Source: Diploscapter coronatus (taxonomy: Eukaryota; Nematoda; Chromadorea; Rhabditida; Rhabditidae). From it: DNA of 64,000 nucleotides. The stretch spans positions 15,771,201 to 15,835,200 of the forward strand of contig OZ038422.1 of assembly GCA_964036155.1 (NCBI GenBank). The letters are read 5' to 3'. The notes under the pieces were generated by a model. It did no database searches, was not told the origin of the DNA, and saw only the letters and a list, made by a program, of their open reading frames with translations. Below are positions 18,515 through 60,033 of the stretch, in pieces (the stretch's first letter is position 1; each line of letters starts with the position of its first letter). Both the position numbers and the translations under genes were made by a program.

Positions 18515-18530
18515 AAGCTAACAATAAGTA

Positions 18531-19170: not shown

Positions 19171-19184
19171 TAAGAGACTTTGAA

Positions 19185-25489: not shown

Positions 25490-25689
25490 NNNNNNNNNNN
25501 NNNNNNNNNNNNNNNNNNNNNNNNNNNNNNNNNNNNNNNNNNNNNNNNNNNNNNNNNNNNNNNNNNNNNNNNNNNNNNNNNNNNNNNNNNNNNNNNNNNN
25601 NNNNNNNNNNNNNNNNNNNNNNNNNNNNNNNNNNNNNNNNNNNNNNNNNNNNNNNNNNNNNNNNNNNNNNNNNNNNNNNNNNNNNNNNN
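25490..25689. other. Assembly gap of 200 N
   Basis: Unknown bases. The round length suggests a placeholder, so true distance and content are unknown. A short minus-strand frame runs up to it from 25815 (contains QITFVPEPISDLLLHELQ) but cannot be assigned. Confidence 0.99.
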
Positions 25690-29475: not shown

Positions 29476-32400
29476 TTACTGAGTAGGTTTAATTACATAA
29501 GGTGGATTATTGATTTTTCTATGTTCAAAATTTTTGAATATTGGCTTTTTATTTGCACAGATCACAATTTTAAATTCATGGGTTCTTCCTAGTATAATTG
29601 GTACAAACCCTTTTGTGCATCTAAGACTAGATTTACTCGGGCTACCATCTACTGCAAAAAGATGTGAGAAAAATACATTTGTTTTTAATTTGGATAAGCA
29701 TATGTTTGGACCATCTTCTCCCCAAAATTTGAAAGAATAACTTCCGTTTCGGCATTCAACAAATATATCTTGATTTTGTTCATTCCTTGATGCTGACGAG
29801 GTTTTGTTCGACACGTAGTAATCTGAATAAGTTCCTCTTATTTAGTGGTATGCAAAGGTTTGGAAACTGCGTATTTTTCGACTTATGCCTGTTCATCCCG
29901 ATAGAATGGTTTTTTCTGAGATGTTTTCTTAACTACAGAAATAACAAAATGTTAAGGAAATTATGAAAAAAGTCAGAAATAGGATATGGAAAATGATATC
30001 GGGATAAAAGTACGTATTGTACAATTTTTTAACTTTAGGCTTACCAAATATACTATCTTCGAGGTACAACTCCTGTGAATCTTCTGGAAACGTGGTGTTT
30101 TTTTTACGTCTACACCAGAATATACTCTGGTTATATTTGACCATACCAACAATAGTCCTTTCAAAATCTGTAATTATTAAGTTGTTGCATGTTTTTATCA
30201 AGCAATTTCGTTAGATTTTTCGCTAGTATAGTTATTAACGAAAGATCTGACGAAATTACTCGAAAGAACCTGCACAGTTTTCACCTGTCTTGGGATCCTG
30301 AAAATATCGAGGTTAGTCTCTGAATAGTCATTCTGACTGGCCAAAATTAAATCTTAGAATAGTGTCGCAGAATTTTTTATGGACTAATTTTGGCGTTTCT
30401 GGTATGACAGTTCGCAATCTAACCTGTGGATGTATGACTATTTGTTCGAAATCATGCTTCTTTCCAATTAGGTCTGCTACGTAGTCGCTTTCACAGGATA
30501 ATTTATTAGTTAGCGGATTATTAGTTTGATAAAATGCGTAAAAGGGGTGGTTTATTTCAAGACGTTTTGATGCCATTGCGAGCAGATGATCTGTTGCATT
30601 GGCTAAACTTACATAAATCAAACAAAGAACATCACTTTAAAATGTAAATATTACTGCTAAAAATTAATTATAAGTAACTTACGGTCAGAGCAATTTAGCA
30701 CTGATATGTTTCGTACTTGCATATAAAATCCTCCAAATGGAACATTTCTTATATATGTGCATTGTGCGGAATCGTTCATGTTTGCCTATTAATCAGTAGT
30801 TATTTATGAGCTTTCTTCAGCTGTCTACTCAGTTGTAAATCAAGATTGCAGACAAATCAGGGGTATTCGGAAATTGCCGTTCCGCTCATTTTTGGACGAT
30901 TTTCGTTCCATTTCGTTATCCGGAATCTTACACAAATTTCCGAACACCCCTGATGCAGATGCGAAATTTATCGACTTCGATGCATTTTGAAAAGTGACTT
31001 GGCCTAGACCTAGGGAGTAGTTTTGCCAGACTCAAAAAAATGATAGGTGGTAAGTCTCTTGGGCGAAATTATCACTATGACATTATCAATCAATACAAAA
31101 GTTTAGCCAATAGGCATGGTAGAGATACAGGGGGTTGATCACATGCTCATCCTAATTAAACTTCTCCCTAAGTCTTACTTGTCCCCTCTACTTATATCGT
31201 GTTTACCTGGTAGTCATAATTGAATGCCTTAGGGTCCATACACCCTTTGTATATGTTTCGCTCGAACATTTCCGCACTAGCTTTGTCAAGCTCTTCCCCA
31301 ATACGTTTCAAGAAGTCGTCATTGCGAGTAGGAAAATTCGTCGTAGTGAGCAGCCTCGATAGGGGTCTAATTCCTAGTTTTAACGGAGCTTCTTTTGTCA
31401 CGTTCGTGTCTTTCTGAAATTGAATCATTTTACGAAGTGGTGTTTTACATATTTTAACGCTTTCTTTTGGATAACTTTTTGTCTAAGTTGTTTCCGAAAA
31501 CGATCATCGAGTCTCTAATCTTTACAAATAAGGAATTAGAAACCTAATTTAATCAATAATTATCCTTACAAATGGCCTGATAGCAGCATCATTACTTACA
31601 CTCTCTTCTGATATTGTTGGATCGGCAAATTCTCCAACCATCTTTCTTGTATATTTAATATTAGCTTCGTTTCGTCCGTTTTGCTGATTATTGTCCATCG
31701 ATGCTTCCCCTTTGCTGTGAACACCTGCTCCAAATGCCTTCACGCTTACCTTAAAAAACGTTATCCGTGTTAATTCTAAATTTTTCCATTTATTTTTGTA
31801 GTTTTTTCGTCGCTACTGTAAAGAAGAGGTAAAATCATTTTTACATTTCTCCTGTCAAGAGAATAAGAATTCGTTGACCGTTTCAAAAATAACTATTAGA
31901 TAAAGTTATTTAAAAAATAAACGGAAAATTTTAGAATTAACACTCTGTAATTCAAATAAAAACGTACATCATATCCACCTCCAGCCTCAAATGTGGTTTC
32001 ATTTTCATTATTGCTTAGACTTGAAAATCGATAATGTTCCAGTTTGGCACCCAGAACGACGTATGTAATGAGTCCTTGCCCGTACAGATTTACTAGTTCC
32101 TGGCAATAGTGTTTAACGTAGTTAAATTTCTCTTTATCATAAAATTGGAATATATTTTCTAGTTTATTCTTGAATTCGGGATCGATGTCGTACTCGTCGG
32201 ATTCGAGCAATAATTTTCGCGTCTCAACCTTCTAAAAAACGCACATAATTGACCTTTATGCAAAAAAATGAATGGGTACATATGTAAGACAAGTGGGCCT
32301 TTATGTAACAAAGAGGGAATCCCTTTTTTGCATAAAGACCCGCCTGTCTTATATAAGTGCTCCCGTCCCTTAACAAACATACCTTTACCCTCATTATGAT

Positions 32401-34210
32401 TTTTGCATTCTTTTTTGCCATTTCTGCTTTCATGTCTAGCAGATTGCCGTTGAGCGACCCCGATAGACCCACGAAGTTCGAGACAGGGACGTCAGCGCTC
32501 ATTTCGATGCCAAGCCGCTTCGATGCTATTAGCTCATTGTGAGTATTGATTACTTCTTTTGTTATTTTTATATCGCCCCGATCAAGGGAAATAACGCCCG
32601 CCTCATCTGGTATTAGCTCCGAATAATCTGTTATCCTGCACTTTGAAAATGTGAATTTTATGGGCATCATTTTTGGATCTTCCTAAAGTAGTCCTTTTTA
32701 CTAATTTTGTTGAGTGTATCTGTCTGTTTGTGAGCGAGTGCGCGTGCAGAGAAACTCGATCGTGCTCTGCTAGGTGATAGGTTCAGGGAAACAGTACATA
32801 CCTCGAGTGCATCGTATCCTCTTCCTAGCCAGCTTGTCAGAACTTTTTCTACTTTCGTGTGGTTGTATTTATCCTTATCTTTGCATTTATTCAAATACTC
32901 GATATATGACGTTCCATTTTCACGTTCGTTGCTAGCTTAATATATATCATTTGATAAAAAATGATGAACTATCAAAAGAAGTTTCTAACCTAAAGTCGCC
33001 CTTTCGGTCTTAGATGGCATCGTCGTCGAAGTATCTATGGCCTTTCTCGAATGGGGGGAAGTTTCCAAGAAGTACGGCTCCGTCGTTGCAAGTGATATCG
33101 AAGAGGGCGTTATGTCTTGAATTTTTTTTCAGTAAAATTACCCACAAATGAGATCAAGTCATATCGAATCATATATTTTCAATTCGAGAGAAAGTGAGAC
33201 TTCGTTTTCCAAAAATATTCAAATTCGCACATATGATAAGTCGATGAAATATGTGTCAAATCGAGATTTTCATTTTTGATTAAAGGAGTCAAGTTTACCA
33301 CTCGAGACAGGATGATCAGTTGACATACTTTCAATCAGTTCAGTAATACTGCCTGGTTTCGTAGTGCTTGGCGGCCTTGTAGTTTTTGGAGGTTTCGTGG
33401 TGCTCGGAGGCTTCGAGCGCTTCTTTTCGGCCTCGACTCTCTCTTCTTCCGCACAACGAAGCTCTTCTCGCCTTATTTCGTCTGCTAGGCGTTGTTTTTT
33501 CCTCTCAAACTCCATCTCCTCTGATCCCTTTCTCTTCATTCCTTCCACTCGTCCACCCCATCGTGTTACAGCTTCGCCGGCTATGTTTGACGGAACTGTG
33601 GACGTCCTTGTCGCCCTTGGTGAAGTAGCAACAGCTTGTTGAGCCCTGAGAGCCCTTATCCTGGCGCTGCACCTTACGTATTTGCTTGCGGCTGGACCAT
33701 CTTCCAGTGCGCGAAGTGGTCTTGATTTGCCTTGAGGAGATCTAAATTTGAATATAATAATATAAGGAAGGTTCATTTTCCACGCGTGGCGGCTTACATT
33801 AACATTGCCTTGATGTTAGCGAAAAATCCCGTGAACTAATTTTAAGAATAATTCGGAGTTTACTTTTAACGTTAAATGCATCTTTTAATTAGTCTTACAC
33901 TTCGGACTCGTCGTCGCTGTTCGAACGCCTGGATCGCGAGAACGCTCTACGATTTTTTCACCATATTATAAATGAATACTCATGTGTTTACCTGCTTCCA
34001 ATTTCCCAGCCGCCAAGCAGTAGAAGGCCGATGATTATAACTACACCGATTTTCACCAATGATGCCGTCTTGAAAGAGTTGGATATATCTCTTCGATCGC
34101 TTTTATGTATACCTTTATTCCGTTTCGATGAAGGCGGTTTCTTCCCGATTGCGCGTTTTCGACTTCTTTCGGCATATCGATAGCTATCATGGGGCTTAGT
34201 TCGCCCATCT
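29476..34210 (-). CDS. MACPF-domain protein with N-terminal membrane anchor
   Basis: MACPF/perforin-fold proteins are pore-forming or related membrane-acting proteins. The 5' exons (about 34209-34006) code a very basic stretch (RSRKRAIGKKPPSSKRNKG), then a membrane helix (VKIGVVIIIGLLLLGGW), so a type II anchor is likely. After a small exon and a basic, coiled exon (33745-33300; contains EEMEFERKKQRLADEIRREE), a Pro/Thr-rich linker follows (KPPSTTKPPKTTRPPSTTKP). The MACPF core starts at YLNKCK and SWLGRGYDALE (about 32890-32812) and continues FTFSKCRITDYSELIPDEAG. LVNLYGQGLITYVVLGAKL (about 32080) takes the place of the family Y-G-T-H motif. NIYKGCMDPKAFNYDYQ joins to CTYIRNVPFGGFYMQV, the cysteine region that usually follows. 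C-terminal exons reach a stop at 29476. The exons upstream of the anchor, including the true start, are not resolved. The 5' part lies in the inverted-duplication arm. Confidence 0.8.
30856..30954. repeat. 99-base hairpin in MACPF-gene intron
   Basis: ATCAGGGGTATTCGGAAATT and AATTTCCGAACACCCCTGAT are inverted. An internal GGAACGGCAATT-like segment also pairs partly. Confidence 0.8.
32282..32354. repeat. 73-base imperfect hairpin in MACPF-gene intron
   Basis: ATGTAAGACAAGTGGGCCTT pairs with AAAGACCCGCCTGTCTTATA across a short loop (GGGAATCCC). Confidence 0.65.
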
Positions 34211-34895
34211 AGATGCTTATTAAAACTCCTTGCTCAAAGGGGGACACCCGATCTCTCTAACCTCTACACAATTTACTTCACTTATCTCTATTTAATCACC
34301 AAAATAAGATGAATAATACTTGCTATAAGATCTTTTGATTATGATTATTTCCCACGCACATACTTACACGAATATCTCTAAATCTTCAATTTTTCTTAAT
34401 TACTCGAGTTACTTTTTTGCTATTTTCCTCGGAATTAACGTGAAAAGTGTCCCAATCAAAGTCATACATACATATATAAAAGCTCATCTTTTCTATAAAT
34501 TTAATATAACTATACCTTCTACCGATCAGAAGGCTGGCTGGCAATTGCTTCGCTGATCTGAATGTTATTCTATTATATTGAAAACAGTATTGTTCAGCAA
34601 AATTAGAGGCTTGGATGTTATCGTGAATCATGAGCCAAGTGAAACTATTGAATAAGAAGAGGGAAGATGCTATGAATGAAAAAGGTGAGCATCATGCAAG
34701 GCCCTGGAAGGAGACAATCGAGAAAATTAAAGAAAATGATGATACATAATGATCGGAGGAAGGGGCACTTCGGCTTTTATACTATGTTGGAGAGATGGGC
34801 AGACCGATTCTCTCATCGGCTCTTTCTGACCCTCTGAAGCACCTGCGAGACCCACTCTATCATCGATTTCGCGCTCTTTCCTTCTCAACGGATAC

Positions 34896-35310
34896 AAAGT
34901 CTAAGTACAGGCTTAGGAACTATGACCACTATTTCGGTATGATCGCTCTGATATAGACATTCTTTTCTCTTCGAATTCTCACGAGATTGACGGGCACAAA
35001 CTCGAAAGTCTTAGGGAATTATGACCGTATTCTTTGTTGATTTCTCTGACACGAAATTATTTCCCTTTTGAATTCTCACGAGATCGACAGATAGCAAGTC
35101 GAAGTACAGGCTTAGGATTATGACCACTATTTCGGTATGATCGCTCTGATATAGACATTCTTTTCTCTTCGAATTCTCACGAGATTGACGGGCACAAACT
35201 CGAAAGTCTTAGGGAATTATGACCGTATTCTTTGTTGATTTCTCTGACACGAAATTATTTCCCTTTTGAATTCTCACGAGATTGACGGGCACAAACTCGA
35301 AGTATTGGGT
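34896..35310 (+). repeat. ~100-base minisatellite, four units in the left arm
   Basis: Units of about 100 bases, arranged as a 200-base higher-order repeat, carry AAGTCGAAGTACAGGCTTAG, TTATGACC, CTCTGA and GAATTCTCACGAGATTGAC in order. Further units occur at 36240-36400, 43590-43800 and 28975-29060, and mirrored in the right arm (48466-48880). Confidence 0.8.
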
Positions 35311-36651
35311 TCGTCAATAATTTTTTCCCACTTTCGTCCTTCCGTCATAACTAAAGGCTGGTAACTACTAATATGGAAAGGGTTACTGTATATTAGAGTA
35401 CAGTACCTAAGCTTGCCATAGATGATGTTTCAAGCTTTCATATGTTGCTTATAAAATTTTAGCAAAAATAATTGTGATAGAATCTATACAGCGATTTTTT
35501 ACTTTTTCCTCATTCTTCAACAAATAATAGACATCTTAAGAATGTCATCGGTGTATTTGGATATGGCTCTACAAATATACTCACTAATTATTTTATGCCA
35601 AGCCCTTTCAGATTGAAAATTATATAAGGATAATATGACGAATCAGTCATTTTCTAAAAAAAGACTACCTTGTTACGCGCTGTAGTCGAATTACAAAGCA
35701 ACTCATCTGAATATGTTTAGGGGGCTTATGTATATCTGATATTATTGTAATCAATTAATGAATTGTAGTAATTGCAGCAGAATAAAATGTGTTTATTCAA
35801 TTATCCTGATCTCTAGTCGTAAAATTGCATAAGAAAAAGGTATGATATGATGAAAGCTGCCAGAAAATTTGTTATACACTGCGATTTTAAGGATAATTTC
35901 CCATATACATCTTATTACTAAAGAAGTGTAGAATATCATAGCTTTTTATCTAGTCATGCATCATAGTTATTATGGAAAAATATTATCGAGAATGCAATGG
36001 AGTCCTAAAATGACAATTATCACATCTTCGGCTAATATTGTTTTCCATAAACATATAAAGAGGGGTTCGGATATCTATCTATTCGATAATCAGCTGATAG
36101 TCTTCTATCATTATCGTTAACATTTGATTTTTTGATGATTTGTCTAAATGAAGAAAAAAATTATAGAAAATTTTCTCGAAAATGGGAAAGAAATTATTGA
36201 CCAATCCAGTAGTCTTAGGAACTATGATCATTATTCCGTGTTAATTGCTTTGATGGGGAATTATTTCCCTTTTGAATTCTCACGAGACCGACAGATAACA
36301 AGTCGAAGTACGGGTCTAGGGATTATGACCGCTATTCCGTGATATGCGCATGCTCTTTTCGAAGTTTCACGAGACCGACAGATAACAAGTCGAAGTACAA
36401 GCAGCGAGCTTTTGCAAAATAAGACAAATTCCACTCCAAATTCAGGAATGTCTTTAGTCTATGCATCTCCATTGTAAGATTCTTCGTGGTTTTATCCGAA
36501 AGATAAATAAGTGCAAGAATGAACATGTTGGAGCATGTATGGCTATGAAATTTGCTTTCTTTAACTTTGAACTATTCATTTATCAATTAAATACATGGTT
36601 TATTGTCTACTTCAAGTTTCAAATAAAGTGAGAATAAATATTTTGAGATTT

Positions 36652-37541
36652 TCATAGATCAGATTGTCGTTCTTTCTCCTTCTTCCGTCTCCTTTCATTG
36701 ATGATCGCTGACGACGATAATTGCGCTGAAAGAACTGATTTCATTGAACAAGAAAAATAGGTATACCTTCACGGGATGGCTGGTCGATCCTCCGATCACA
36801 AATAGCGCAATATACCGAGTTCTGCGATGAATGCGCCTTCTTTAACTTTTTGCCTAAAATAATGATCATTTTGGAACACAAACTAATTACATACTTGGAG
36901 AACTGGATTCTCCATTGGTTTCTTCTCGAGTTTGCTTCTTTCGATTGCTTCTGACCAGCCTTGTCTGCATTCAATTTCGATTCCACTCTTACAGAGCACG
37001 TCGTGACTACGGAGGCGGAGGATTTTGCCGCATCCTCGGTCCCAATTATATCGCTCTACGGCCTTCTTCTAAATGAAAAATGTATTCATTTGTAAATGAT
37101 CTCTCTTTTGTCTTTAATGTAAAGTTTTGAAGAAAGACAATACCTTTGCTTGATAAATGATATTTTGTCACAAGAATTTTCGCTGATGAGCAGGAAATCA
37201 TAGAAAAATTGTTCGTTCTTTCAAAATTGATTGCTTTATTTGCACCGAGATTTTCAGTTTCAGTTTTGGAATTCAAGAGCGCTTACCTCGCATGTTTCTG
37301 ACTTCCTTTTGGAAAGGACGACTTTTAATTCTGCCTTTTTCTAATTCATTACTATTCCCGTGATCCTTCTGCATTCTTCTAAGTGTCGATTTTCAGTTCG
37401 CAATCGACCATTTTCAAGCTCTAATACCCTAAAGTTGTTCAATTTAGTTGGTATTTTGGTGATATAGACAATTTACTCGTTGCGCGAGACGAGATCGATG
37501 ATCAGATCGCTAATTTCTTTAGGTACCAAAGTAGTATTCAT
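36652..37541 (-). CDS. Small coiled-coil protein with CxxC, left-arm copy
   Basis: Mirror copy of the gene at 46235-47124, with the same bases at each position compared. See that entry for the exon description. The start at 37541 follows a TTTCAG acceptor. Confidence 0.5.
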
Positions 37542-37664
37542 TTTCTGAAATGACAATGATTTAGAACGAATTTGTTGGAATCAAGAACCCAGAAAAATAA
37601 AACGATTTTTAGAATAAAGAAAAGTTCACCTTTTTAAAATTTCCTAAGTTTCCATAAATGTATA

Positions 37665-38503
37665 TTTCATATTTCCATTAGAATATTAGAGTCCCGATGA
37701 TTTAGACACCGAACAATGTCCGATTTAAGCGGACATCATCTGAGTCGAGATACGATATCTGAATTTAAAAAGAATGAACGTGTTGAGAGAGATGAGCGGT
37801 TCTCGAACGAAAGGGATAAAGAAATGACAGGAATGGGTTCATTTGGCAGAGAAAGGCCGAGCTGAAATTTGAAAACTGGATCAGCTCTTCTCAAATGAGA
37901 TCGGCTTTATAAGCTTGACTTCTAGGGGATGCGGCTGTGTGGACGATGTCTGAAACACAGTAATCGTGGCTCGCTCTTCACTTTCTATACGCTCTTATCT
38001 CGTAACAAATAGAAGGAAAGTGAAGCGGAGGCGCCTAGAGACTGCTCTGTGAGATAAGGCCGATTTGAGTCCGTCAGCCCTGTTTCCTCTCTCGCTCCGC
38101 CTCTGTCCTGGCAAGCTTCTCCCCCCAACTTCGCCGCCCAATTGGATGCCTCGGTCCTGCTTCTCTTTTGCTCCCTCTCTATCCTGACAAGCTCCTCTCC
38201 CAATTGGATGCCTCAGACTTCCCTGTAAGAAGCAGGTGCTCCCCTTGATATCCCAGACCCATTTCATAACCTATTACAAGATTCTCTTCTTGCATTACTT
38301 CGCTGACCCGGCCTTTCTCTGCCAAATGAACCCATTCCTGTCATTTCTTTATCCCTTTCGCTCGAGAACCGCTCATCTCTCTCAACATTCTCATTCTTTT
38401 TACTTTCAGATATCGTATCTCGACTCAGATGATGTCCGCTTAAATCGGACATTGTTCGGTGTCTAAATCATCGGGACTCTAATATTCTAATGGAAATATG
38501 AAA
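37665..38503. mobile_element. 839-base foldback element, complete copy
   Basis: The 194-base terminal inverted repeats (37665-37858 and 38310-38503) have a constant coordinate sum of 76168. They include TTTAGACACCGAACAATGTC and GAAATGACAGGAATGGGTTC. No transposase is seen; the interior is GC-richer with a long run of charged codons in several frames. The inner arm edge of the inverted duplication (38474) falls 29 bases inside its right end. Confidence 0.85.
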
Positions 38504-38631
38504 TTTTGGCAAATTCAGATTGCCTTTGAAAAGGAATTATTTTTCATGAGTTTGAAAAGAAAACATTGAAAATAACGATTTTTATCAATATGTAGGCTTC
38601 TTAGATCGATCCAAATCAAAATCCATTTCAG

Positions 38632-38937
38632 ATTGATGATGACAACGATATCATCTTCCTCAAAGAAGTCAAGCCGAAGACCATCGATAAACAATGCTTC
38701 CCCTGTTTGTAAAAGTGCTGCCGTTGACAAAGTGGAGCATGCTTCCTTGCCGTCAGAAACAGGTAAATTACTGACGGCTTGCCCATTTCGATGACGGATT
38801 CTTCTCTAGCCACCGGAAATCACCATCAATTGGAACGATGTATCGAGGAAAACATCGACCCTAATGACAACGAAAGTATCCCAATTCGAACACTGAAAAT
38901 GCAAGTGCTGTTCCTGTGTGCTTATGTTCAAACGTAG
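38632..38937 (+). pseudogene. Two-exon coding remnant at the left-arm edge
   Basis: After a TTTCAG acceptor an exon reads LMMTTISSSSKKSSRRPSIN, then VEHASLPSET to a GT donor (38762). The next exon begins at 38810 and reads TGNHHQLERCIEENIDPND to a stop at 38935-38937. The 5' part is missing. It directly abuts the inverted-duplication arm, so an original gene may have been cut by the rearrangement. Family not recognised. Confidence 0.35.
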
Positions 38938-39944
38938 TTCGAGAAGTGGAATCAGATGATCAGGGGACGAGAACAAGAAATCGTCCATATTATAAGCATT
39001 TCAATATTCATCATCAATCAAAATCTGTATTCATTATTATCAATTAATTCTAATAAAAATAATATAATTTATTTATGTTCGTTTTTTCGCCACTATAAAG
39101 CCTATAGTGTATATGTAAAAATTCAAATTTAAATGACACAGTATAGAAAAAATCGATTTAGAGAGCATTAAACCGAATTATATTAGCCATTCAACGAGCT
39201 TTAACCGGTCGGGGGATCTCCTTTTTGAGTAGAAAAATTCTAACACGTGAAATTGGCTTGATGAACAAACTTTAAACGGTCCCAAAACATTTCCTGATTC
39301 TCGTTACGAATGTTTTACGAACTGTTTTCCTTTGCCAGAACCAAATCCGTATTTGAATTCCAACCAATTTTGGGATAACGGTCACCACTAGCCCTATCCT
39401 TTACCCTACTTATTATGTTCTTTATTTTCCCTCCTTTTCCTTTAGAAAAATACTATCATCCTACCCAAAATATTAATTTCAAGCATTCACGCACAGATAT
39501 AAAGACGGGACATTTTTATGATAAATAAAATTCGTAAAGGATTGAAAAATTTATTTTAACCTTAGTGAGTTTTTATGAAACATACTATGCCTAAAAATTA
39601 TAAAAGTAAAAAGATGTGTAGAATATAGCTTAATAGCCGTTTAAGAAAGGATTAAAGAGAAGTTATTTAGCCCTAAAACGAAATTCAAGAAAGATACAAC
39701 AAAGAAAATTAAGAATGTCGAAGTTGGCTATTTGAAAACTCGTGATTTTAACAAGGTTAAGGAGCTAATTTTTCAAAGGCGTATGTATTGTAAAATGGTA
39801 AAAAAAGTCTACCAATTAAATATCTATTTGATGATAATACATGTATTTTAGTTAAAGATAAATTTTAAATAAACCCAAAAGTAGTAGTGCAAGATGGTTG
39901 AAAGGGCGATTGCTCTGATGAGGTTTCTCGTTATGGCCCATCAT
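38938..39944. other. AT-rich spacer, nothing coding seen
   Basis: No exon pair with matching splice sites found on either strand. There are several short A/T-rich degenerate repeats only. Confidence 0.5.
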
Positions 39945-42900
39945 TTACCAGTCATCCCAGTCGAGCTTTTTCTTTGTCAATGAGGGTTTCTGGGGCTTTT
40001 GTGGAGGAATGTAGAAGTTCTTCCTCGGCAACATCGTCGAATCCCATTTCCTTAACAATAATGGATTATTTCGAGGCCAATTCTGAATTGTAAATCATCT
40101 CACAATCAGACTTTTTTCTATTTTTCAATATTGAACGGAAGATATGGTGAATCTTATAAATGCAGTCACTATTCTCTTTCCAAATCTTTGATTTCAGACT
40201 ATCACGCTTCTACCAAAAACGCATTTTGCAAGGGGGCGGAGCTTGGGAATCCTACCTGTAATTGAAGCAGGCAGTACACTGAGTCGTCTTTTCAATGTCG
40301 ACTGATCGGAATGAAGAGAAGTGATCTTGGAACTGAATATCACGATATTTGCAAAATCGTTCTTAATTGAATTTTATCATACAACAAGAGTAGCAGCCGG
40401 AGGCAATCGATTTGCGAAAGTCAGAACTCCACCCTCGAGTTTAGGAAGAATGCTCTTGTCGAGCAGAATCGCGATCGAATTCACATCGACTGCTGTATTC
40501 GAAATGTAGATCTCTCTCAGAGCTGGCATGTCGTGCAGCATCTGAAGTATGGATCCATTGTTTGGATAACGACAAATTAATGATGAAAGGTATATTTAGA
40601 TTTATGCAACTTCACATATATTCCGCGAAATTTGTTTCGACTTTTCGCCAGAATTGCTAAAATCTTACATCTTCAATATCCTTGCTGACTAGCTTTCTTG
40701 CATAGGCGACGTCGACTTTCTCGAGCAGCCTCAATCTCTGAGTGAGCAATTTCAATTGTGATCCGTCAATGACGACATCGTGCGAGCAGAATTCCTTGAC
40801 CCCAGACGATAATGCAGAAATGAATCGAGTGATTTCTTCGGCCGACGTTTCTCGTGGCAGATTCCTAAATATATTCGATGCATTGATGTTGTTGAATGAT
40901 ATCTCCATACAACAAGGAAATATTCTCAAGTTGCGTCAAATGTGGAAGGCTGTTGTTGACGGTGCTGATAACTCTAGGATCTGTCCAGCCGTGCAGCTCC
41001 AGAATTCGCAAATTCTTTAGATCCCGAAGAGCTGAAAATAGTTATTGCTTAGGAATTATAAAATCTGTTGGAATTAACCTATTTCATAGTTATCTGGAAT
41101 TGGGGTATTTTATTATTAAAAATAGGAATGTGAATTCAGATTGATTTTCATAAACTATATCAGGAATTCAGAATTATTATATTTCTCGTTTTCTTTATCA
41201 AATTTTCTAAATTATAAATTCAAAGTGCACCTGCAGCGAATTCTGTATAATCGGCCATGTGCTGAGGGGTGGTCGGCCTTGCATTTATATGAAGAGAAGT
41301 GACATTCGGAAGAGTGCAGGCGAAGGAGGCCATTTGGAATATTTCAGGGTGGACTTTGCAACGAGTCGGCACACTGAAAACATTACGTTCACAATGATTA
41401 GTTTCATGTATCATCACATGATTTTGTCACAGATCGTCTTAACATCTCTAGAAAATTAATGTTTTCTTACATTTCATACATGTCCTCGATCCACTCGAAT
41501 GCAAATCTCAGCCTCAGCTCTTTGCATTGACTCGACATTTCCTTCATCAATCTTTTGCATTCAGCGCCACTAAAATTTCGAACCATTACCAATTTTAGCT
41601 CTGATGATCAAACTATTCACCTACTGATCCACGGGAAATCCATGGAGATTTCCTCGAGGACATGGTTCATAGCCCTGAGTCTGGCTACGAATTCAAATGC
41701 CATTTCATACGAGAAATATCGAAGCGACAGTTTTTTCAATGACGTTGTAGCAAAAACCTAAATTAGTTTACTTTTGTATAATCCCTGTTTGTCTTGCTTA
41801 CAATAAGTTTGACATTCTCCTCTTTCGAGTCAAACCAAGCACCATCAATGTTAAGTTCCTGTATTCTCTGGGGAATCGGACATTCAGAAGAGGCCACTGA
41901 AAATAAGACATTGGAATGCAATGTTTTAGAAACAAAAATAGTTATGGAAGATAGCTTACAGTATCGAATAGCTTGATCGTCGAATCCACACTCATTGAAG
42001 CTAATTCGAGTTAGGAACGGCAAATGAGTCGCTATACTTCGAAGCAGATCTTCAGTGATTATCAGCTGAATATCGATTTGCGAATCATACTCTGAATTTT
42101 GATCATTTACCTGATGATTCCTGACTCCCCAGTCTTGATCCTTTGCAATTCCACCCAGTGTCAATCTTTGGATTTGCTTCGAGAACCTCTTTACTATTCC
42201 ATTCATTACGGTCACTGAAATTTGACTCATTTCTTGATAACTCTTAATTTTTGTTGGCATCTAACTAGCCCAATTAGGTTATTTCTAACAACATCCTTTT
42301 CTCATTTCTGGCTATTCTAGTTCAAATAGTCTATCCTCTTTATATTTGCAAAACTAAATAGAAAACTACTGACTAAATTCTTCCGTCTGATTTGGCAGAT
42401 AATTGACTTCTTCGCCGGGTTCCGCAGCATCTCTTCTTTCGATAAAATCATCCCGTCGTGACTGAAAAGCAGAAATAAATTTTGTTGATTCATTAAATTT
42501 TTTCGCCTCGTAGATGCTCATTAAATCTGTAGCATAAACATTCTTCCATATTTCATATTTTTCCTTCACAGCTACTGTTTTCGATCAATGAACCAATCGT
42601 AATATAAATGCATATGCATATTGAATGAATGAAGTGAAGAGACCTCGAGAGTGAGGCAGGGTTTGTGGATGCAGAGATTGCCATATCGGAACGAAACCAG
42701 GGAATAGAGCAGTCGAAATTGGATGCCCAGATGATCTCGTTCAGTTCGGAATTTGTATTTGGCTTTGCCGCTCAGATACTTCATTCGATTGTTGCACAAC
42801 TCGACCTTCGCTCGATCCTGAACATGAACTTTGATCGTTTTTCCATGTATCTTATAAAAATTTCTTTTTAATATATATTTCTAATTTCGATCAAAAACAT

Positions 42901-43256
42901 TTACCACTTTGTAACAGATTTGTTGAATATATTCAAATTCCAATTTACCCTAACATTCGATATGTACGAGAAAATGTGGCACATGACGAGATCATTTCTG
43001 TAGACTGCCTTCTGCAGAAGTTCCATAGTTTTGGAATCATAATAGCTACCGTCTCCACAGGAGACGATTACCATTTGTCTAAATATTATTTAATCCATCT
43101 CCTTTCAGTCAATTTTCAATTAAACTACTTTTCATTAGCTTCCTTCGGAATTTCCTCGGAAATGTCAGTCTTCTGCACTGGTTCATTATTCTGCTGTAAC
43201 TGCTCATTTTGATTGTTTTGCGATTGAATCTCCCATCGCCTGCTGTTCGAAGACAT
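39945..43256 (-). CDS. Leucine-rich-repeat protein, possibly F-box/LRR type
   Basis: A start at 43256 gives a Gln/Asn-rich N-terminus (MSSNSRRWEIQSQNNQNEQL). An exon at about 43080-42955 follows (MELLQKAVYRNDLVMCHIFS, which could be part of an F-box). A basic exon comes next at about 42842-42600 (MKYLSGKAKYKFRTERDHLG). From 42260 down to 40375 successive exons carry LRR-like strands: ITEDLLRSIATHLPFLTRIS with FNECGFDDQAI, IPQRIQELNIDGAWF, ATTSLKKLSLRYFSYEMAFE, and CTLPNVTSLHINARPTT. NLRILELHGWTDPRVISTV with SLPHLTQLENISL, LLTQRLRLLEKVDVAYARKL and MLHDMPALREIYISNTAVDV complete the series. An exon ending KKKLDWDDW-stop (40091-39945) may be the last, although the previous exon also has a stop at about 40374. 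LRR proteins of this kind in nematodes are often ubiquitin-ligase adaptors, but the F-box assignment is weak. Confidence 0.6.
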
Positions 43257-43389
43257 GCCGAATGAAGCCACCAGCTGAAAGGCATTTGTGAATGCACGAA
43301 CGATAACAAATGATACCCTTTTTCATAAAAATTATCATTTTATTAGTTCTTTTTTATTTTAATGAAAAGGCTAAACAAACATAAAACTT

Positions 43390-44060
43390 GAAGAGTTGAG
43401 ATATGGTATCTGAAAGAATGCTAGATTCTCTGAGTCATATAGAGAACGAGATAGCGCGTGAAGCTAAGAGAAAAGAGAGTTCAGAGAAAAAACGATCAGT
43501 CTTTATTTCTAATTTTGTAGATTTTCTGTGCTTGTTCTAACAGAAAACTGGAGAAATTATTTCCATGAGACTGATAGACACAAAAAGTCGAAGTACAGGC
43601 TTAGGATTATGACCGTATTCTTTGTTGATTACTCTGACACGAAATTACTTCCCTTTTTGAATTCTCACGAGATCGACAGATAACAAGTCGAAGTACAGGC
43701 TTAGGATTATGACCGTATTCTTTGTTGATTGCTCTGACATGAAATTATTTCCCTTTTGAATTCTCACGAGATTGACGGGTGCAAAGTCAAAGTACAAACA
43801 GCGGGTTTTACAAAATAATAGACAATTTTGCATTCCAAATTCAGTAATGTCTTTAGTCTATGCATCTCCATTGTAAGATTCTTCGTGGTTTTATCCGAAA
43901 GATAAATAAGTGCAAGAATGAACATGTTGGAGCATGCATGGCTATGAAAATTTCTTTTTTCATTGTCTGAACTACTAATTTATGAATTAAATACGATTTA
44001 TTGTTTACTTCAAGTTTCAAATAAAGTGAGAATGAATATATCGAGATTTTCATAGGTGAA
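43390..44060 (+). repeat. Diverged copy of arm and 28.8-kb repeats in the spacer
   Basis: 43390-43620 matches 28800-29060, 43590-43800 holds minisatellite units, and 43800-44056 matches 36405-36655 of the left arm in the same orientation (TCTTTAGTCTATGCATCTCC, then GAACATGTTGGAGCATG). It is clearly older than the arm duplication. Confidence 0.8.
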
Positions 44061-44067
44061 TTGTTGT

Positions 44068-44400
44068 CGTCGTTCAGTTATCCCTTGAGGGATATCCAGG
44101 AAGCACCACGAGGAGGTAGACGAACATCACTTCCCGCCACACAATAACACACACACACACACACATTATCTTAATTACAAAAAATAGGCTTGCAGCCTAT
44201 TTAAAAAAAAAGTTGCCCAGAAGGAGGCAATTCAGTCCAGTGTACAGCACTCATAACATTTGATGTTATGCGAATCCGAAAATTTCCATAGACCAGACTG
44301 TTGTCGTCGTTCAGTTATCCCTTGCAGGGTATCCAGGAAGCACCACGAGGAGGTAGACGAACATCACTTCCCGCCACACAATAACACACGCACACACATA
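44068..44400 (+). repeat. Direct duplication around CA microsatellites
   Basis: About 95 bases at 44068-44165 (GTTCAGTTATCCCTTGAGGG, then GAAGCACCACGAGGAGGTAG and a CA run) recur at 44311-44400 with few changes. The period is about 243 bases. Confidence 0.85.
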
Positions 44401-44429
44401 CAACCTGAAAAATTCGATATTCAGAATTG

Positions 44430-45232
44430 AACCAAGAAATCTCATCAGAATATGAGAAAAACTTACTGATTGGATTGTCAGCCTCGCGTGGGGCCTGTTG
44501 CGCAAGAGGGGCCTTTATGAAGGAGTCGGCCATCAAAGTGGGTGCTTCAACAACTGCATATATGAGCAGTTCCTAAAGTTATTCCTTCAAATTGATCCTT
44601 TAGAAAATGATAATTACATCGGCAAGTCTCTTGCGAGACTTTTTCGCAACGATCTGTTTTCGAATAACAGGAGAAGCTTGATTTATAGCCTCAAACTGTT
44701 CCGGAATTTCCTCATCGATGCCCACCATATCAATTTCCGAGCCTCTCATCATTGTTCGTGTCAATAGTGTCGTAGATTGGCTGGAAGGTGGCAGGCTGCG
44801 TCATGCTCTTGATCGGTCTCGCAGCGATCATCACCCATTCGTTCAGGTAAGGACGTACCACTCTACTCTGTACGAACGTCTCAGCCAAAACATTTTGGAT
44901 CATACCTATAAAATGACTTGTTTAGATCTCAAACAAATGCTGCGCTTATGGCTAACCTTCCTGGTCCTTCACGAACAATCTGGTCCCGTTTCGTTTCGTG
45001 CCAATGAACACCGCGGTGGGTGGGAAGGGTTGTTTTCCCTTGACTCTCAGGGCGTACTCTCTGATGAGAACAGGAATGTGTGGGGAAGTGTAAAGATGGA
45101 GAAGCTGAACGAAGCGATTAGATCTCTTTAGGAAGCTGAAAGTAACCAAATAATCAATAAACTGAATTAAACTTTACCTAACGTAGATCTGCCCACGAAT
45201 GAAGCTTTCATAGCAGAATTGTGGTTTAGAGT
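44430..45232 (-). CDS. Unrecognised gene, 5'-truncated at right-arm edge
   Basis: Joined exons read CYESFIRGQIYV (about 45230-45190), then FLKRSNRFVQLLHLYTSPHI with VLIREYALRVKGKQPFPPTA and VFIGTKRNGTRLFVKDQE (about 45136-44959). These are followed by VLAETFVQSRVVRPYLNEWV with MIAARPIKSMTQPATFQPIY, EEIPEQFEAINQASPVIRKQ, and MADSFIKAPLAQQAPREADN near 44500. The frames change once near 44755, so either a small intron is missed or there is a frameshift. No start codon is found before the duplication edge at 45302. I do not recognise the family. Confidence 0.45.
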
Positions 45233-45301
45233 TAGTTCTTTTACCTTTTTATTATGTGAAATATTTCTTCAATTATAATCATAGTTCAAATCAATAGAAA
45301 T

Positions 45302-46111
45302 CCGATGATTTAGACACCGAACAATGTCCGATTTAAGCGGACATCATCTGAGTCGAGATACGATATCTGAAAGTAAAAAGAATGAGAATGTTGAGAGAGA
45401 TGAGCGGTTCTCGAGCGAAAGGGATAAAGAAATGACAGGAATGGGTTCATTTGGCAGAGAAAGGCCGGGTCAGCGAAGTAATGCAAGAAGAGAATCTTGT
45501 AATAGGTTATGAAATGGGTCTGGGATATCAAGGGGAGCACCTGCTTCTTACAGGGAAGTCTGAGGCATCCAATTGGGAGAGGAGCTTGTCAGGATAGAGA
45601 GGGAGCAAAAGAGAAGCAGGACCGAGGCATCCAATTGGGCGGCGAAGTTGGGGGGAGAAGCTTGCCAGGACAGAGGCGGAGCGAGAGAGGAAACAGGGCT
45701 GACGGACTCAAATCGGCCTTATCTCACAGAGCAGTCTCTAGGCGCCTCCGCTTCACTTTCCTTCTATTTGTTACGAGATAAGAGCGTATAGAAAGTGAAG
45801 AGCGAGCCACGATTACTGTGTTTCAGACATCGTCCACACAGCCGCATCCCCTAGAAGTCAAGCTTATAAAGCCGATCTCATTTGAGAAGAGCTGATCCAG
45901 TTTTCAAATTTCAGCTCGGCCTTTCTCTGCCAAATGAACCCATTCCTGTCATTTCTTTATCCCTTTCGTTCGAGAACCGCTCATCTCTCTCAACACGTTC
46001 ATTCTTTTTAAATTCAGATATCGTATCTCGACTCAGATGATGTCCGCTTAAATCGGACATTGTTCGGTGTCTAAATCATCGGGACTCTAATATTCTAATG
46101 GAAATATGAAA
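45302..46111. mobile_element. Right-arm copy of the 839-base foldback, truncated
   Basis: Mirror of 37665-38503 but lacking the last 29 bases of one inverted repeat, at the duplication breakpoint. Confidence 0.85.
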
Positions 46112-46234
46112 TATACATTTATGGAAACTTAGGAAATTTTAAAAAGGTGAACTTTTCTTTATTCTAAAAATCGTTTTATTTTTCTGGGTTCTTGATTCCA
46201 ACAAATTCGTTCTAAATCATTGTCATTTCAGAAA

Positions 46235-47124
46235 ATGAATACTACTTTGGTACCTAAAGAAATTAGCGATCTGATCATCGATCTCGTCTCGCGCAACGAG
46301 TAAATTGTCTATATCACCAAAATACCAACTAAATTGAACAACTTTAGGGTATTAGAGCTTGAAAATGGTCGATTGCGAACTGAAAATCGACACTTAGAAG
46401 AATGCAGAAGGATCACGGGAATAGTAATGAATTAGAAAAAGGCAGAATTAAAAGTCGTCCTTTCCAAAAGGAAGTCAGAAACATGCGAGGTAAGCGCTCT
46501 TGAATTCCAAAACTGAAACTGAAAATCTCGGTGCAAATAAAGCAATCAATTTTGAAAGAACGAACAATTTTTCTATGATTTCCTGCTCATCAGCGAAAAT
46601 TCTTGTGACAAAATATCATTTATCAAGCAAAGGTATTGTCTTTCTTCAAAACTTTACATTAAAGACAAAAGAGAGATCATTTACAAATGAATACATTTTT
46701 CATTTAGAAGAAGGCCGTAGAGCGATATAATTGGGACCGAGGATGCGGCAAAATCCTCCGCCTCCGTAGTCACGACGTGCTCTGTAAGAGTGGAATCGAA
46801 ATTGAATGCAGACAAGGCTGGTCAGAAGCAATCGAAAGAAGCAAACTCGAGAAGAAACCAATGGAGAATCCAGTTCTCCAAGTATGTAATTAGTTTGTGT
46901 TCCAAAATGATCATTATTTTAGGCAAAAAGTTAAAGAAGGCGCATTCATCGCAGAACTCGGTATATTGCGCTATTTGTGATCGGAGGATCGACCAGCCAT
47001 CCCGTGAAGGTATACCTATTTTTCTTGTTCAATGAAATCAGTTCTTTCAGCGCAATTATCGTCGTCAGCGATCATCAATGAAAGGAGACGGAAGAAGGAG
47101 AAAGAACGACAATCTGATCTATGA
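46235..47124 (+). CDS. Small coiled-coil protein with CxxC, right-arm copy
   Basis: The start at 46235 follows TTGTCATTTCAG, a possible trans-splice acceptor. Exon 1 reads MNTTLVPKEISDLIIDLVSR and joins VLELENGRLRTENRHLEECR after a short intron, a good heptad pattern for a coiled coil. The frame then meets a stop (TGIVMN-stop at about 46434). A shift by one base would continue NSNELEKGRIKSRPFQKEVR to a GT donor at 46489. Later exons give LKKAHSSQNSVYCAICDRRI with DQPSRE (46923-47009), then SAIINERRRKKEKERQSDL-stop (47124). The CAICDRR pair resembles half a zinc site. Both arm copies share the same apparent frame break, so either the splice model is wrong or the break predates duplication. AATAAA-like signals follow at about 47171. 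Confidence 0.5.
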
Positions 47125-49568
47125 AAATCTCAAAATATTTATTCTCACTTTATTTGAAACTTGAAGTAGACAATAAACCATGTATTTAATTGATAAATGA
47201 ATAGTTCAAAGTTAAAGAAAGCAAATTTCATAGCCATACATGCTCCAACATGTTCATTCTTGCACTTATTTATCTTTCGGATAAAACCACGAAGAATCTT
47301 ACAATGGAGATGCATAGACTAAAGACATTCCTGAATTTGGAGTGGAATTTGTCTTATTTTGCAAAAGCTCGCTGCTTGTACTTCGACTTGTTATCTGTCG
47401 GTCTCGTGAAACTTCGAAAAGAGCATGCGCATATCACGGAATAGCGGTCATAATCCCTAGACCCGTACTTCGACTTGTTATCTGTCGGTCTCGTGAGAAT
47501 TCAAAAGGGAAATAATTCCCCATCAAAGCAATTAACACGGAATAATGATCATAGTTCCTAAGACTACTGGATTGGTCAATAATTTCTTTCCCATTTTCGA
47601 GAAAATTTTCTATAATTTTTTTCTTCATTTAGACAAATCATCAAAAAATCAAATGTTAACGATAATGATAGAAGACTATCAGCTGATTATCGAATAGATA
47701 GATATCCGAACCCCTCTTTATATGTTTATGGAAAACAATATTAGCCGAAGATGTGATAATTGTCATTTTAGGACTCCATTGCATTCTCGATAATATTTTT
47801 CCATAATAACTATGATGCATGACTAGATAAAAAGCTATGATATTCTACACTTCTTTAGTAATAAGATGTATATGGGAAATTATCCTTAAAATCGCAGTGT
47901 ATAACAAATTTTCTGGCAGCTTTCATCATATCATACCTTTTTCTTATGCAATTTTACGACTAGAGATCAGGATAATTGAATAAACACATTTTATTCTGCT
48001 GCAATTACTACAATTCATTAATTGATTACAATAATATCAGATATACATAAGCCCCCTAAACATATTCAGATGAGTTGCTTTGTAATTCGACTACAGCGCG
48101 TAACAAGGTAGTCTTTTTTTAGAAAATGACTGATTCGTCATATTATCCTTATATAATTTTCAATCTGAAAGGGCTTGGCATAAAATAATTAGTGAGTATA
48201 TTTGTAGAGCCATATCCAAATACACCGATGACATTCTTAAGATGTCTATTATTTGTTGAAGAATGAGGAAAAAGTAAAAAATCGCTGTATAGATTCTATC
48301 ACAATTATTTTTGCTAAAATTTTATAAGCAACATATGAAAGCTTGAAACATCATCTATGGCAAGCTTAGGTACTGTACTCTAATATACAGTAACCCTTTC
48401 CATATTAGTAGTTACCAGCCTTTAGTTATGACGGAAGGACGAAAGTGGGAAAAAATTATTGACGAACCCAATACTTCGAGTTTGTGCCCGTCAATCTCGT
48501 GAGAATTCAAAAGGGAAATAATTTCGTGTCAGAGAAATCAACAAAGAATACGGTCATAATTCCCTAAGACTTTCGAGTTTGTGCCCGTCAATCTCGTGAG
48601 AATTCGAAGAGAAAAGAATGTCTATATCAGAGCGATCATACCGAAATAGTGGTCATAATCCTAAGCCTGTACTTCGACTTGCTATCTGTCGATCTCGTGA
48701 GAATTCAAAAGGGAAATAATTTCGTGTCAGAGAAATCAACAAAGAATACGGTCATAATTCCCTAAGACTTTCGAGTTTGTGCCCGTCAATCTCGTGAGAA
48801 TTCGAAGAGAAAAGAATGTCTATATCAGAGCGATCATACCGAAATAGTGGTCATAGTTCCTAAGCCTGTACTTAGACTTTGTATCCGTTGAGAAGGAAAG
48901 AGCGCGAAATCGATGATAGAGTGGGTCTCGCAGGTGCTTCAGAGGGTCAGAAAGAGCCGATGAGAGAATCGGTCTGCCCATCTCTCCAACATAGTATAAA
49001 AGCCGAAGTGCCCCTTCCTCCGATCATTATGTATCATCATTTTCTTTAATTTTCTCGATTGTCTCCTTCCAGGGCCTTGCATGATGCTCACCTTTTTCAT
49101 TCATAGCATCTTCCCTCTTCTTATTCAATAGTTTCACTTGGCTCATGATTCACGATAACATCCAAGCCTCTAATTTTGCTGAACAATACTGTTTTCAATA
49201 TAATAGAATAACATTCAGATCAGCGAAGCAATTGCCAGCCAGCCTTCTGATCGGTAGAAGGTATAGTTATATTAAATTTATAGAAAAGATGAGCTTTTAT
49301 ATATGTATGTATGACTTTGATTGGGACACTTTTCACGTTAATTCCGAGGAAAATAGCAAAAAAGTAACTCGAGTAATTAAGAAAAATTGAAGATTTAGAG
49401 ATATTCGTGTAAGTATGTGCGTGGGAAATAATCATAATCAAAAGATCTTATAGCAAGTATTATTCATCTTATTTTGGTGATTAAATAGAGATAAGTGAAG
49501 TAAATTGTGTAGAGGTTAGAGAGATCGGGTGTCCCCCTTTGAGCAAGGAGTTTTAATAAGCATCTAGA
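47125..49568. other. Right-arm non-coding stretch
   Basis: Mirror of 34208-36651. It holds minisatellite units (47455-47540 and 48466-48880) and AT-rich sequence. A short frame at 49145-49390 is identical in both arms but has no motif or splice partner. Confidence 0.6.
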
Positions 49569-52500
49569 TGGGCGAACTAAGCCCCATGATAGCTATCGAT
49601 ATGCCGAAAGAAGTCGAAAACGCGCAATCGGGAAGAAACCGCCTTCATCGAAACGGAATAAAGGTATACATAAAAGCGATCGAAGAGATATATCCAACTC
49701 TTTCAAGACGGCATCATTGGTGAAAATCGGTGTAGTTATAATCATCGGCCTTCTACTGCTTGGCGGCTGGGAAATTGGAAGCAGGTAAACACATGAGTAT
49801 TCATTTATAATATGGTGAAAAAATCGTAGAGCGTTCTCGCGATCCAGGCGTTCGAACAGCGACGACGAGTCCGAAGTGTAAGACTAATTAAAAGATGCAT
49901 TTAACGTTAAAAGTAAACTCCGAATTATTCTTAAAATTAGTTCACGGGATTTTTCGCTAACATCAAGGCAATGTTAATGTAAGCCGCCACGCGTGGAAAA
50001 TGAACCTTCCTTATATTATTATATTCAAATTTAGATCTCCTCAAGGCAAATCAAGACCACTTCGCGCACTGGAAGATGGTCCAGCCGCAAGCAAATACGT
50101 AAGGTGCAGCGCCAGGATAAGGGCTCTCAGGGCTCAACAAGCTGTTGCTACTTCACCAAGGGCGACAAGGACGTCCACAGTTCCGTCAAACATAGCCGGC
50201 GAAGCTGTAACACGATGGGGTGGACGAGTGGAAGGAATGAAGAGAAAGGGATCAGAGGAGATGGAGTTTGAGAGGAAAAAACAACGCCTGGCAGACGAAA
50301 TAAGGCGAGAAGAGCTTCGTTGTGCGGAAGAAGAGAGAGTCGAGGCCGAAAAGAAGCGCTCGAAGCCTCCGAGCACCACGAGGCCTTCTAGCACTCAGAA
50401 GCCCACAAACAGCTCATCGAATCAAAGAAGCCAAGACCCGTTGGAGCGAAACGAGAAAGTGTGGCGATGGATCAACGAAACGTGAGTAAAAAGCACCATT
50501 TCATTGGCAAAATGAAGAGTAGCATACGGACGAACGGAAGGATATTTTAGCAGGGACATAAAGCGCGTTTTTATCGATAACTTCAGAGGAAAACCCCTCG
50601 AGAAGACCCGGACCTGGTTCAGGCTGGGCGCGAACTACTCGCTGGCAAAAGTGAGCGATATCCGAGAGGATAGACTGAACCATTTCATGGTGGCAGTGAA
50701 GTAATAATTTTAACATATTGTATTGGATATTATTCGAAAAAAAATCAGAAATAAGGATGGAATTCTGTGGCGCTCTGATAAACTTCCGGACTGTTTGCGC
50801 CCACCAAACAGCCTAAACGCAGAAAGTAAGTGAATCGTGTTACTTCTATATTTTTATGACTAGAACTTCTCGCTCGCCGTTCTAGTGCCAGTCTTCGGCT
50901 GGCTATTAGAATTTGAATTACCTCTACTAAATATTTGTATCTCAAAGAAACTAAATTAGATACTATTTGTCGATTAAAATGAACCATTTACCTTGACATC
51001 ATTATTTTAAAAAGTTCTGTGAAGATTATTCGAAAGTTCAGGTTAAATTTGAAAATTGCCCTTCTTTGAAAAATGTATACGTTCTTATATAGTAGAGTTA
51101 ATAATTAATAACTATTAACTACAAAGCTAGATTCTACGAATTCAATTTAATGCAGCCCATAAAATTACCCACAAATTTGTATAATCCATAATTACAGGAG
51201 AATCGAAACCAACGCAGGAGCAACTCGATCAGAACGAGAAAGTGTGGCGATGGATCAACGAAACGTGAGTAAAAAGCACCATTTCATTGGCAAAATGAAG
51301 AGTAGTAGACGGACGAACGGAAGGATATTTTAGCAGGGACATAAAGCGCGTTTTTATCGATAACTTCAGAGGAAAACCCTTCAAGAAGACCCGGACCTGG
51401 TTCAGGCTGGGCGCGAACTACTCGCTGGCAAAGGCGGGCGATATCCGGGAGGATAGACTGAACCATTTCATGGTGGCAACAACGTAAGACAACCTTTAAA
51501 TATGACATTGAATATTATTCGCAAAAATTCAGAAACAAGAAAGGGATTAGGTGGAATTCTAATAATTTTCCAAACGGCTTGCTTCCGCCGGACAGTATAA
51601 ATGCAGAAAGTAAGTAAATGGCGTTACTCCTTTATTTATGACTACAAAGCCCTTTTACGAGGCGTCTATTTGATAAAGCTTGTTCCGGGAATGAGTTCTG
51701 AAACGCTTCCATCTCATAATTTTGACTCCCTCAAATGTAAAATATCAAATGAACGCGCCCTTATGACTTTGATTTTTCCTGATATCCATTCTTATTAAAT
51801 TAGAAAATTCAATATATGAATCTTTATTTAGTATCTTCTTCTTCTTTTTTAGTATTTTTGTAAAGTGTGTCTGTCTGTCTGTCTGTGTGTCCGAGCTTAT
51901 TTCTAGCCACCTGTCTATCGTACCCCCATGTATGATACACCGTTTGATAGGTCTCAGTTGCATCCTGTGCAACGTAACTTTTCCGACGACTTTTGACCTA
52001 ATTTTTGGGTACTTTTGGCCCAAAAACTATAATATGCTAATTTTGACATCGAAATTTGCAAATCGTTTGAGAGGCCATTACCGACAGTATTCGCTATTTC
52101 GCTGATGAGCTCTTCTCCTTCCTCTCTCTACTATCTTATCTAAGTTAAATGTATGTGAAAATTGGTGGATGTGAGAGTTCATTACTGCTACTACCCCAAT
52201 GAAAGGCGGTCGGATGCTTGAGTCTGGAAATAGATTTCACAATGGAACTGAATCTTGAGAGATATGATAAAATGCTGTTGCTAAATTATGTTAAATTAGC
52301 TACTATCTTATCTAAATTAATAAATGCGAAAAGTGATGGCACATTGATAGCCCATTACTGCTTCCGCGACAATGAAATGCAATCCGAGTTTCGGAATGGG
52401 AACTTGACCTTACAATGAGATTGAGACTGGACATGGAGAGAAATGGAAACTTCTAATTGCAATTGCTGACTGATACTAAATTTGCATATTAGAAGAGTTT

Positions 52501-59852: not shown

Positions 59853-60033
59853 GGAAGTTTCCACTTGGCCAAACCCTTATTCATTTTGTTCGTTATGATT
59901 ATTAATGGTGTAAAATTGGCTGTTGCTATGGTATCATATATCGACTATTCTCTATATCAATTCTCATGTTAATGTTAATTTTTCAAAAAATAGAATAAAT
60001 GATAATTATATTTTGGTTATCTAGTCTATCCTG

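Follow-up and report, generated by a model that had tools for sequence, protein, structure and literature searches.

An anchor cassette shared by two genes at the edges of an inverted repeat in Diploscapter coronatus

How do two genes come to open with the same exons and to close with different domains? This question is raised by a 64,000-nucleotide stretch of the genome of the nematode Diploscapter coronatus (hereafter, the window), which corresponds to C1:15771201-15835200 in a 169.7 Mb assembly of three contigs, among them C1 (OZ038422.1; 87.7 Mb) and C2 (82.0 Mb). Within the window, a 5-kb inverted repeat reaches into the coding exons of two divergently transcribed genes, one of which joins a predicted membrane anchor to a MACPF domain resembling that of MPEG1, and the other joins the same anchor to tandem modules of an unnamed domain. 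We favor, with a probability of roughly 60%, the reading that a 5' anchor cassette has been repeatedly joined at its linker to different effector parts, within inverted repeats that can undergo gene conversion. The initial annotation of the window anticipated part of this picture, namely the same 5' exons in two gene models, the edge of the repeat in the linker, and gene conversion; its proposals that the two ectodomains are unrelated and that they form a dedicated pair were not supported by the analysis. All gene models discussed here are predictions from genomic sequence, and splicing at one comparison locus, C1:36.43 Mb, was judged by eye.

Two genes across the edges of the repeat

The arms of the repeat, at 33395-38474 on the plus strand and at 45302-50381 on the minus strand, are 5080 bp long each and flank a spacer (38475-45301). 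They are reverse complements of each other at 5079 of 5080 positions, with no indels, in agreement with the near-perfect mirror image originally described, and a chance origin is excluded for a repeat of such length. The sole difference, T at 33486 versus C at 50290 (strand-corrected), is synonymous and falls in a leucine codon (CTA/CTG) of the shared coil exon. Each arm carries the same anchor exons, as had been claimed: all four query pieces were found in both arms, three at 100% identity, and the fourth likewise as far as the arm edge. This edge indeed lies inside the exon that encodes a proline/threonine (Pro/Thr) linker, where both copies read GCTCGAAGCCTCCGAGCACCACGA and then diverge.

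Both genes begin with a short basic tail, one helix, a basic coil and the Pro/Thr linker. The anchor helix has a hydropathy of 2.37 and is the only one above 1.6 in either model. The exon layout suggests an N-terminal signal anchor, with the remainder of each protein outside; basic residues flank the helix on both sides, so that this topology is tentative. Upstream of the gene models, the arms contain 4.27 kb of identical DNA (34209-38474), from which similar expression of the two genes is predicted.

The left gene (30331-34208, minus strand) comprises 12 exons with 730 open codons, and all 11 of its introns are of the GT...AG type with compatible phases. The hydrophobic anchor exon (33992-34068), the exon for the coil and the linker (33329-33741), which contains the arm edge at 33395, and the MACPF exons (31207-32935) are all on the minus strand, and the frame is open across the edge, which bears out the claim that the left anchor exons lead into a MACPF domain. 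In a comparison with PDB sequences, the left ectodomain matches MPEG1/perforin-2 (6sb3) with an E-value of 1.2e-13 over residues 34-380 of 477, an alignment that spans the MACPF domain and covers only the beginning of the next domain (MABP/P2). A D. pachys protein, P0002, also matches MPEG1/perforin-2 (E-value 8e-15) and scores 18.1 bits against the Pfam MACPF model, below the cut-off of 21.5; the spliced left protein yields no Pfam family at E<=5. Given the MPEG1 match and the presence of Pfam-positive MACPF loci in the same genome, we regard the MACPF assignment of the left gene as correct on sequence comparison, albeit not via Pfam. A frame initially read as HNALFDITC... was dropped, and the linker frame matching that of P0002 gave the open left model. 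An open reading frame (ORF) at 29476-29841 (minus strand) looks similar, on visual comparison, to the final exon of the C1:36.43 Mb locus and possibly encodes the C-terminal end of the left gene; no C-terminal helix was found either in this ORF, where the best hydropathy is 1.15, or in the 730-residue model, whose C-terminal exons are incomplete.

The right gene (49568-54989, plus strand) has the same anchor, coil and linker, followed by five modules and the first exon of a sixth, in 19 exons with 715 open codons; 18 of 18 introns are GT...AG with compatible phases. Its hydrophobic anchor exon lies at 49708-49784, and the exon for the coil, the linker and the first module exon, which contains the arm edge at 50381, at 50035-50481 (both on the plus strand). 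The five complete modules occupy 50439-54863 on the plus strand (50439-50825, 51222-51609, 53358-53748, 53832-54219 and 54477-54863), each consisting of three exons with phases 2, 2 and 1, and are followed by a lone first module exon (54923-54989). With the frame open across the edge and five complete modules behind it, the annotation of tandem unrecognized modules downstream of the right anchor exons is upheld. A divergent module copy in two pieces (56669-56794 and 56869-56940; 56669-56940 overall, plus strand) lies outside the gene model, and between the module array and these pieces there is an 829-bp self-complementary stretch (55580-56408; 93.3%).

Pfam searches with separate exons and spliced pieces gave no family above the cut-off for the modules, the anchor or the left MACPF. 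Six weak Pfam matches of the module query, the best of which was Jak1_Phl (0.0054; 17.1 bits versus a cut-off of 26.1), were dropped. The one NCBIfam match had 12.8 bits, far below the cut-off of 140, and a PDB sequence search with one module produced three weak matches, the best with an E-value of 0.023. The AlphaFold models were poor, with a mean predicted local distance difference test score of 41 for P0001, another D. pachys protein, and 32.7 for P0002 with P0003, and hence were not used for a fold search. Searching the assembly with the module listed nine matches in three places, all on C1; seven of the nine are in the window and none on C2. At C1:76592501-76597000, there are fragments of MACPF and module sequence, which probably represent a degenerate copy.

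History of the arms

What made the arms so similar? Collinear matches between C1 and C2 at 93-100% identity suggest that the two contigs are homologous chromosomes, and C2 carries, at 8367289-8457384, a palindrome whose arms, each about 36 kb long, are 99.903% alike (28 mismatches, 4 gap openings) and whose 18-kb spacer is collinear with 15-30 kb of the window. Each palindrome arm holds two copies of the window arm, A and B, inverted to each other; copy A borders on sequence from the left end of the spacer of the window, copy B on sequence from the right end, and these two ends are flipped there in order and in orientation. The MACPF sequence adjoins copy B on C2 but the left arm in the window, and this placement of the spacer relative to MACPF is the one that an inversion mediated by inverted repeats would leave.

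Blocks of about 0.7-0.9 kb are missing from the C2 copies, those missing from A being other than those missing from B, and each window arm contains them all. A dispersed repeat (35303-36211), present in both window arms and in copy B and absent from copy A, recurs at nearly full length in 17 further places of the genome with 81-88% identity. Among 903 aligned sites that distinguish A from B, many of them in non-homologous blocks, the window arm shares the state of B at 558, that of A at 321 and neither at 24; our reading of the arm history rests on the block structure of A and B rather than on this count. The inverted pair is judged to be older than the separation of the window and the C2 block. 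Because C2 holds the same inverted pair and the same spacer with diverged arms, arm-to-arm gene conversion on C1 would be the simplest cause of the arm identity, and this suggestion of the initial annotation thus appears the better explanation.

A recent inverted duplication on C1, without conversion between the arms, would also account for the agreement at all positions except one and for the same set of blocks in both window arms. Such an event is unlikely, given that the inner junctions are common with C2: the left part of the spacer and copy A form one match (38309-43796), as do the right part of the spacer and copy B (44299-46081), so that both arms would have bounded the spacer before the window and the C2 block split.

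An artefact of assembly would likewise leave just one difference between the arms, and the surroundings invite this concern. Gaps lie nearby, both in the window (25490-25689, 200 N) and on C2 (14994045-14994244). The left part of the window matches C2:14.98 Mb, and window positions 13884-24927 are identical to C2 14983001-14994044 over 11,044 bp, followed on C2 by the 200-N gap, compared with the 2-7% divergence often seen in other collinear matches of the two contigs; furthermore, the blocks are at displaced map positions. Nevertheless, the scaffold gap accounts for all Ns of the window and lies outside the arms and the genes discussed here, with no N in 25690-64000. Moreover, three of the four arm junctions are independently present in the C2 block, and the fourth has an open 19-exon frame and leads into linker-module DNA for which, starting at 50363, there is a match at C1:36.43 Mb. 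We therefore consider an artefactual repeat very improbable; scaffolding errors outside 25690-64000 of the window are possible.

Partners of the anchor cassette

The anchor search of the genome produced 25 matches that represent 12 copies: the window holds two of them, the C2 block has four, and six are elsewhere. On C2, MACPF follows copy B of the block, and copy A runs towards a region resembling Endonuclea_NS_2 (E-values of 0.0002-0.002). This region is 86-88% alike to C2:35.48 Mb, where an anchor copy also runs towards a nuclease-like part. Among the four copies compared at the linker, CCTCCGAGCAC is common, followed by three different continuations, and the parting point of copy A is the same linker edge as in the window. 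For the anchor copies at C1:7.446, C1:18.926 and C2:7.003 Mb, no ectodomain was recognized within the stretch read, and two of these three loci then show EGF-like ORFs, seemingly of a separate gene. In the locus L044, the anchor helix is followed by an N gap. The other two of the six anchor copies are located at C2:17.89 Mb, and one MACPF copy is at C2:9.09 Mb.

The front end of the left gene appears to have been replaced. In a MACPF paralogue at C1:2.05 Mb, the linker and the MACPF part are the same as in the left gene but the hydrophobic ORF is a different one, which by eye resembles that of P0002, and none of the four anchor exons matches there; the DNA homology of this paralogue to the left gene ends at 33277, 118 bp outside the arm. 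The left gene has apparently undergone conversion with paralogues as well. This is indicated by the patchy identity to its relative on C2 (77-100% in 200-bp blocks), by the per-exon synonymous divergence (dS) of 0 to 0.62, and by the 100% amino-acid identity of exons 11-12 with the C1:2.05 Mb paralogue.

The two ectodomains of the window had been described as unrelated extracellular parts. At C1:36.43 Mb, one strand carries, in this order, a Pro/Thr linker, one module and an exon that scores 2.6e-10 for PF01823, and P0001, a single predicted protein, contains a helix, a linker, a module and then a stretch matching the sequence just before the MACPF exon of that locus (59%, 49 residues). Because P0001 and C1:36.43 Mb carry both parts, the window's ectodomains would be parts of one known layout, with the module first, and their description as unrelated is not supported. 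The four named protein matches to the module, MACPF and anchor queries are all from D. pachys, and the fifth match is P0005. For P0004, also from D. pachys, the whole length of 119 residues is matched at C1:7.446 Mb, with agreement in 88.7% of 133 aligned columns, 14 of which are extra in the genomic ORF. Among the loci read, rather than genome-wide, P0001 and P0002 have no close match, the best single pieces reaching 76% and 79%; genes may have turned over between isolates or species, or the assembly may have gaps.

That a module and MACPF sequence are combined elsewhere, in a single predicted protein or at a single locus, mildly favors a shared process and, along with the identical upstream DNA, is compatible with a recognition-and-attack pair, in which the module protein would bind or organize, the MACPF protein would make pores, and both would be brought to one place and time by the anchor and upstream DNA that the genes have in common. 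We find this scenario rather improbable: none of the nine module matches listed is on C2, where the inverted neighbor of the MACPF gene is nuclease-like, and MACPF paralogues without modules exist (P0002 and C1:2.05 Mb). With the inverted anchors of C2 carrying MACPF and a nuclease-like part, the rearrangement does not seem to have made a dedicated pair, contrary to the earlier proposal.

Repeated joining of the cassette, the reading that we favor, can be cast as a sequence of events. The two divergently transcribed genes have in common a 5' cassette, consisting of the upstream DNA, the anchor helix, the basic coil and the start of the Pro/Thr linker, that is joined at or near the linker to alternative 3' parts, namely the MPEG1-like domain, the tandem modules and the Endonuclea_NS_2-like part; the repetitive Pro/Thr linkers may have been the joining sites. 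Recombination between the arms would have flipped the spacer in one of the two blocks, that of the window or that of C2, and gene conversion would then have made the window arms identical.

Several observations weigh against this reconstruction. Three pieces of copy A, the first two overlapping, reach 18.8, 19.7 and 22.1 bits against PF13930 (Endonuclea_NS_2), below the cut-off of 27. The inner arm edge sits 30 bp within an 841-bp foldback element (37664-38504; 196-bp terminal repeats agreeing at 190 of 196 positions) that is inverted in copy A, so that the local history is more complex than a single flip. The C2 block is at another map position than the window, as a displaced allele or a paralogue: its right flank matches C1:8.854 Mb (93%) and its left flank matches pieces of C1:8.81-8.83 Mb, and with these flanks mapping elsewhere on C1, an initial reading of the block as merely the other allele was abandoned. 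Besides conversion, a second duplication at a later time would be able to yield identical arms. Furthermore, the right gene model is partial at the 3' end, and the YGTH-type signature, a motif of the MACPF superfamily, is altered to YGQGLIT in the left gene; the exon at C1:36.43 Mb keeps YGTHIIT.

The last two points could also mean that at least one of the two genes is a decaying copy that yields no functional product, as could the fragmentary module and MACPF pieces at C1:76.59 Mb and a ratio of nonsynonymous to synonymous substitution rates (dN/dS) of 1.87, based on few changes, in one of 10 module pairs. Decay is doubtful, however, considering that frames of 730 and 715 codons are open over 12 and 19 exons, that dN/dS relative to C2 copy B is 0.50 for the anchor and, for the ectodomain, 0.39 (right palindrome arm) and 0.45 (left palindrome arm), and that dN/dS is below 1 in the other nine module pairs.

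Elsewhere in the window, there are two 1-kb direct repeats (17450-20234) that are 89% alike and whose sequence is found at many other places in the genome, a foldback element of about 770 bp (60027-60796) with at least 18 other near full-length places at 80-96% identity, and a perfect tandem repeat of a 23-bp unit in 5.6 copies (59572-59699). An ORF on the minus strand (12985-13470) may encode an acid sphingomyelinase-like protein. On C2, the ORF at the outer edge of the palindrome (8457279-8456356) is one that we take to encode a mariner-like transposase, and arm matches in mirror symmetry at C2:4574228-4614551 suggest a second large palindrome.

Relation to known systems

No report of the arrangement seen in the window was found in searches of open-licence papers, among which one on aegerolysins names both Diploscapter and MACPF. 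Long inverted repeats with a proposed upkeep by conversion are, however, already known. In Caenorhabditis, long near-perfect inverted repeats lie between oppositely oriented genes, and conversion has been proposed as their upkeep (PMC1803023); the flanking genes there are paralogues, whereas in the window only the 5' part is common and the 3' parts differ. Likewise, the palindromes of Y chromosomes and of asexual animals have inverted arms able to convert each other; a survey of asexual animals describes one in D. pachys, with two genes, and judges such palindromes to be of little genome-wide importance, a conclusion that weighs against a general role (PMC7953838). Unlike those palindromes, the arms in the window end inside coding exons, so that conversion would keep just the front half of each protein alike. 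The present finding would join two usually separate subjects: the use of inverted repeats for conversion in a lineage that reproduces by parthenogenesis, and the origin of new immune-type effectors through the attachment of one anchor to several functional parts.

The likeness of the left ectodomain to MPEG1/perforin-2 (PDB 6sb3 and 6u2j) covers the MACPF domain and the beginning of the domain behind it, with YGQG replacing YGTH. MPEG1 carries a C-terminal membrane helix, whereas the only helix found in the left gene model is N-terminal; an N-terminally anchored MPEG1-like protein would, if real, be the opposite of the usual layout. MPEG1 is described as an antibacterial effector of vertebrates and invertebrates (PMC7593815), and the likeliest role for the products of the window's genes, although we give it somewhat less than even odds, would be that of membrane-tethered defence effectors; the altered YGTH motif calls for caution here.

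Should the arrangement hold at the transcript level, Diploscapter would offer an animal system in which the diversification of effectors through anchor swapping can readily be studied. The nearest parallel in layout comes from bacterial polymorphic toxins, in which a constant front part is joined to varying effector parts, nucleases included. By extension, one may speculate about a eukaryotic polymorphic-effector system, in which a constant anchor cassette and control region, kept in inverted repeats open to conversion, are re-attached via repetitive Pro/Thr linkers to a pore-former, a module array or a nuclease-like part; recombination, both inside single chromosomes and from one to another, would then let a lineage without sexual reproduction, here a parthenogenetic one, replace its surface effectors over time. 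We consider so broad a generalization unlikely. The likeness to the bacterial toxins is one of layout only and implies no membership in that group: those described here are intron-bearing animal genes with a membrane anchor.

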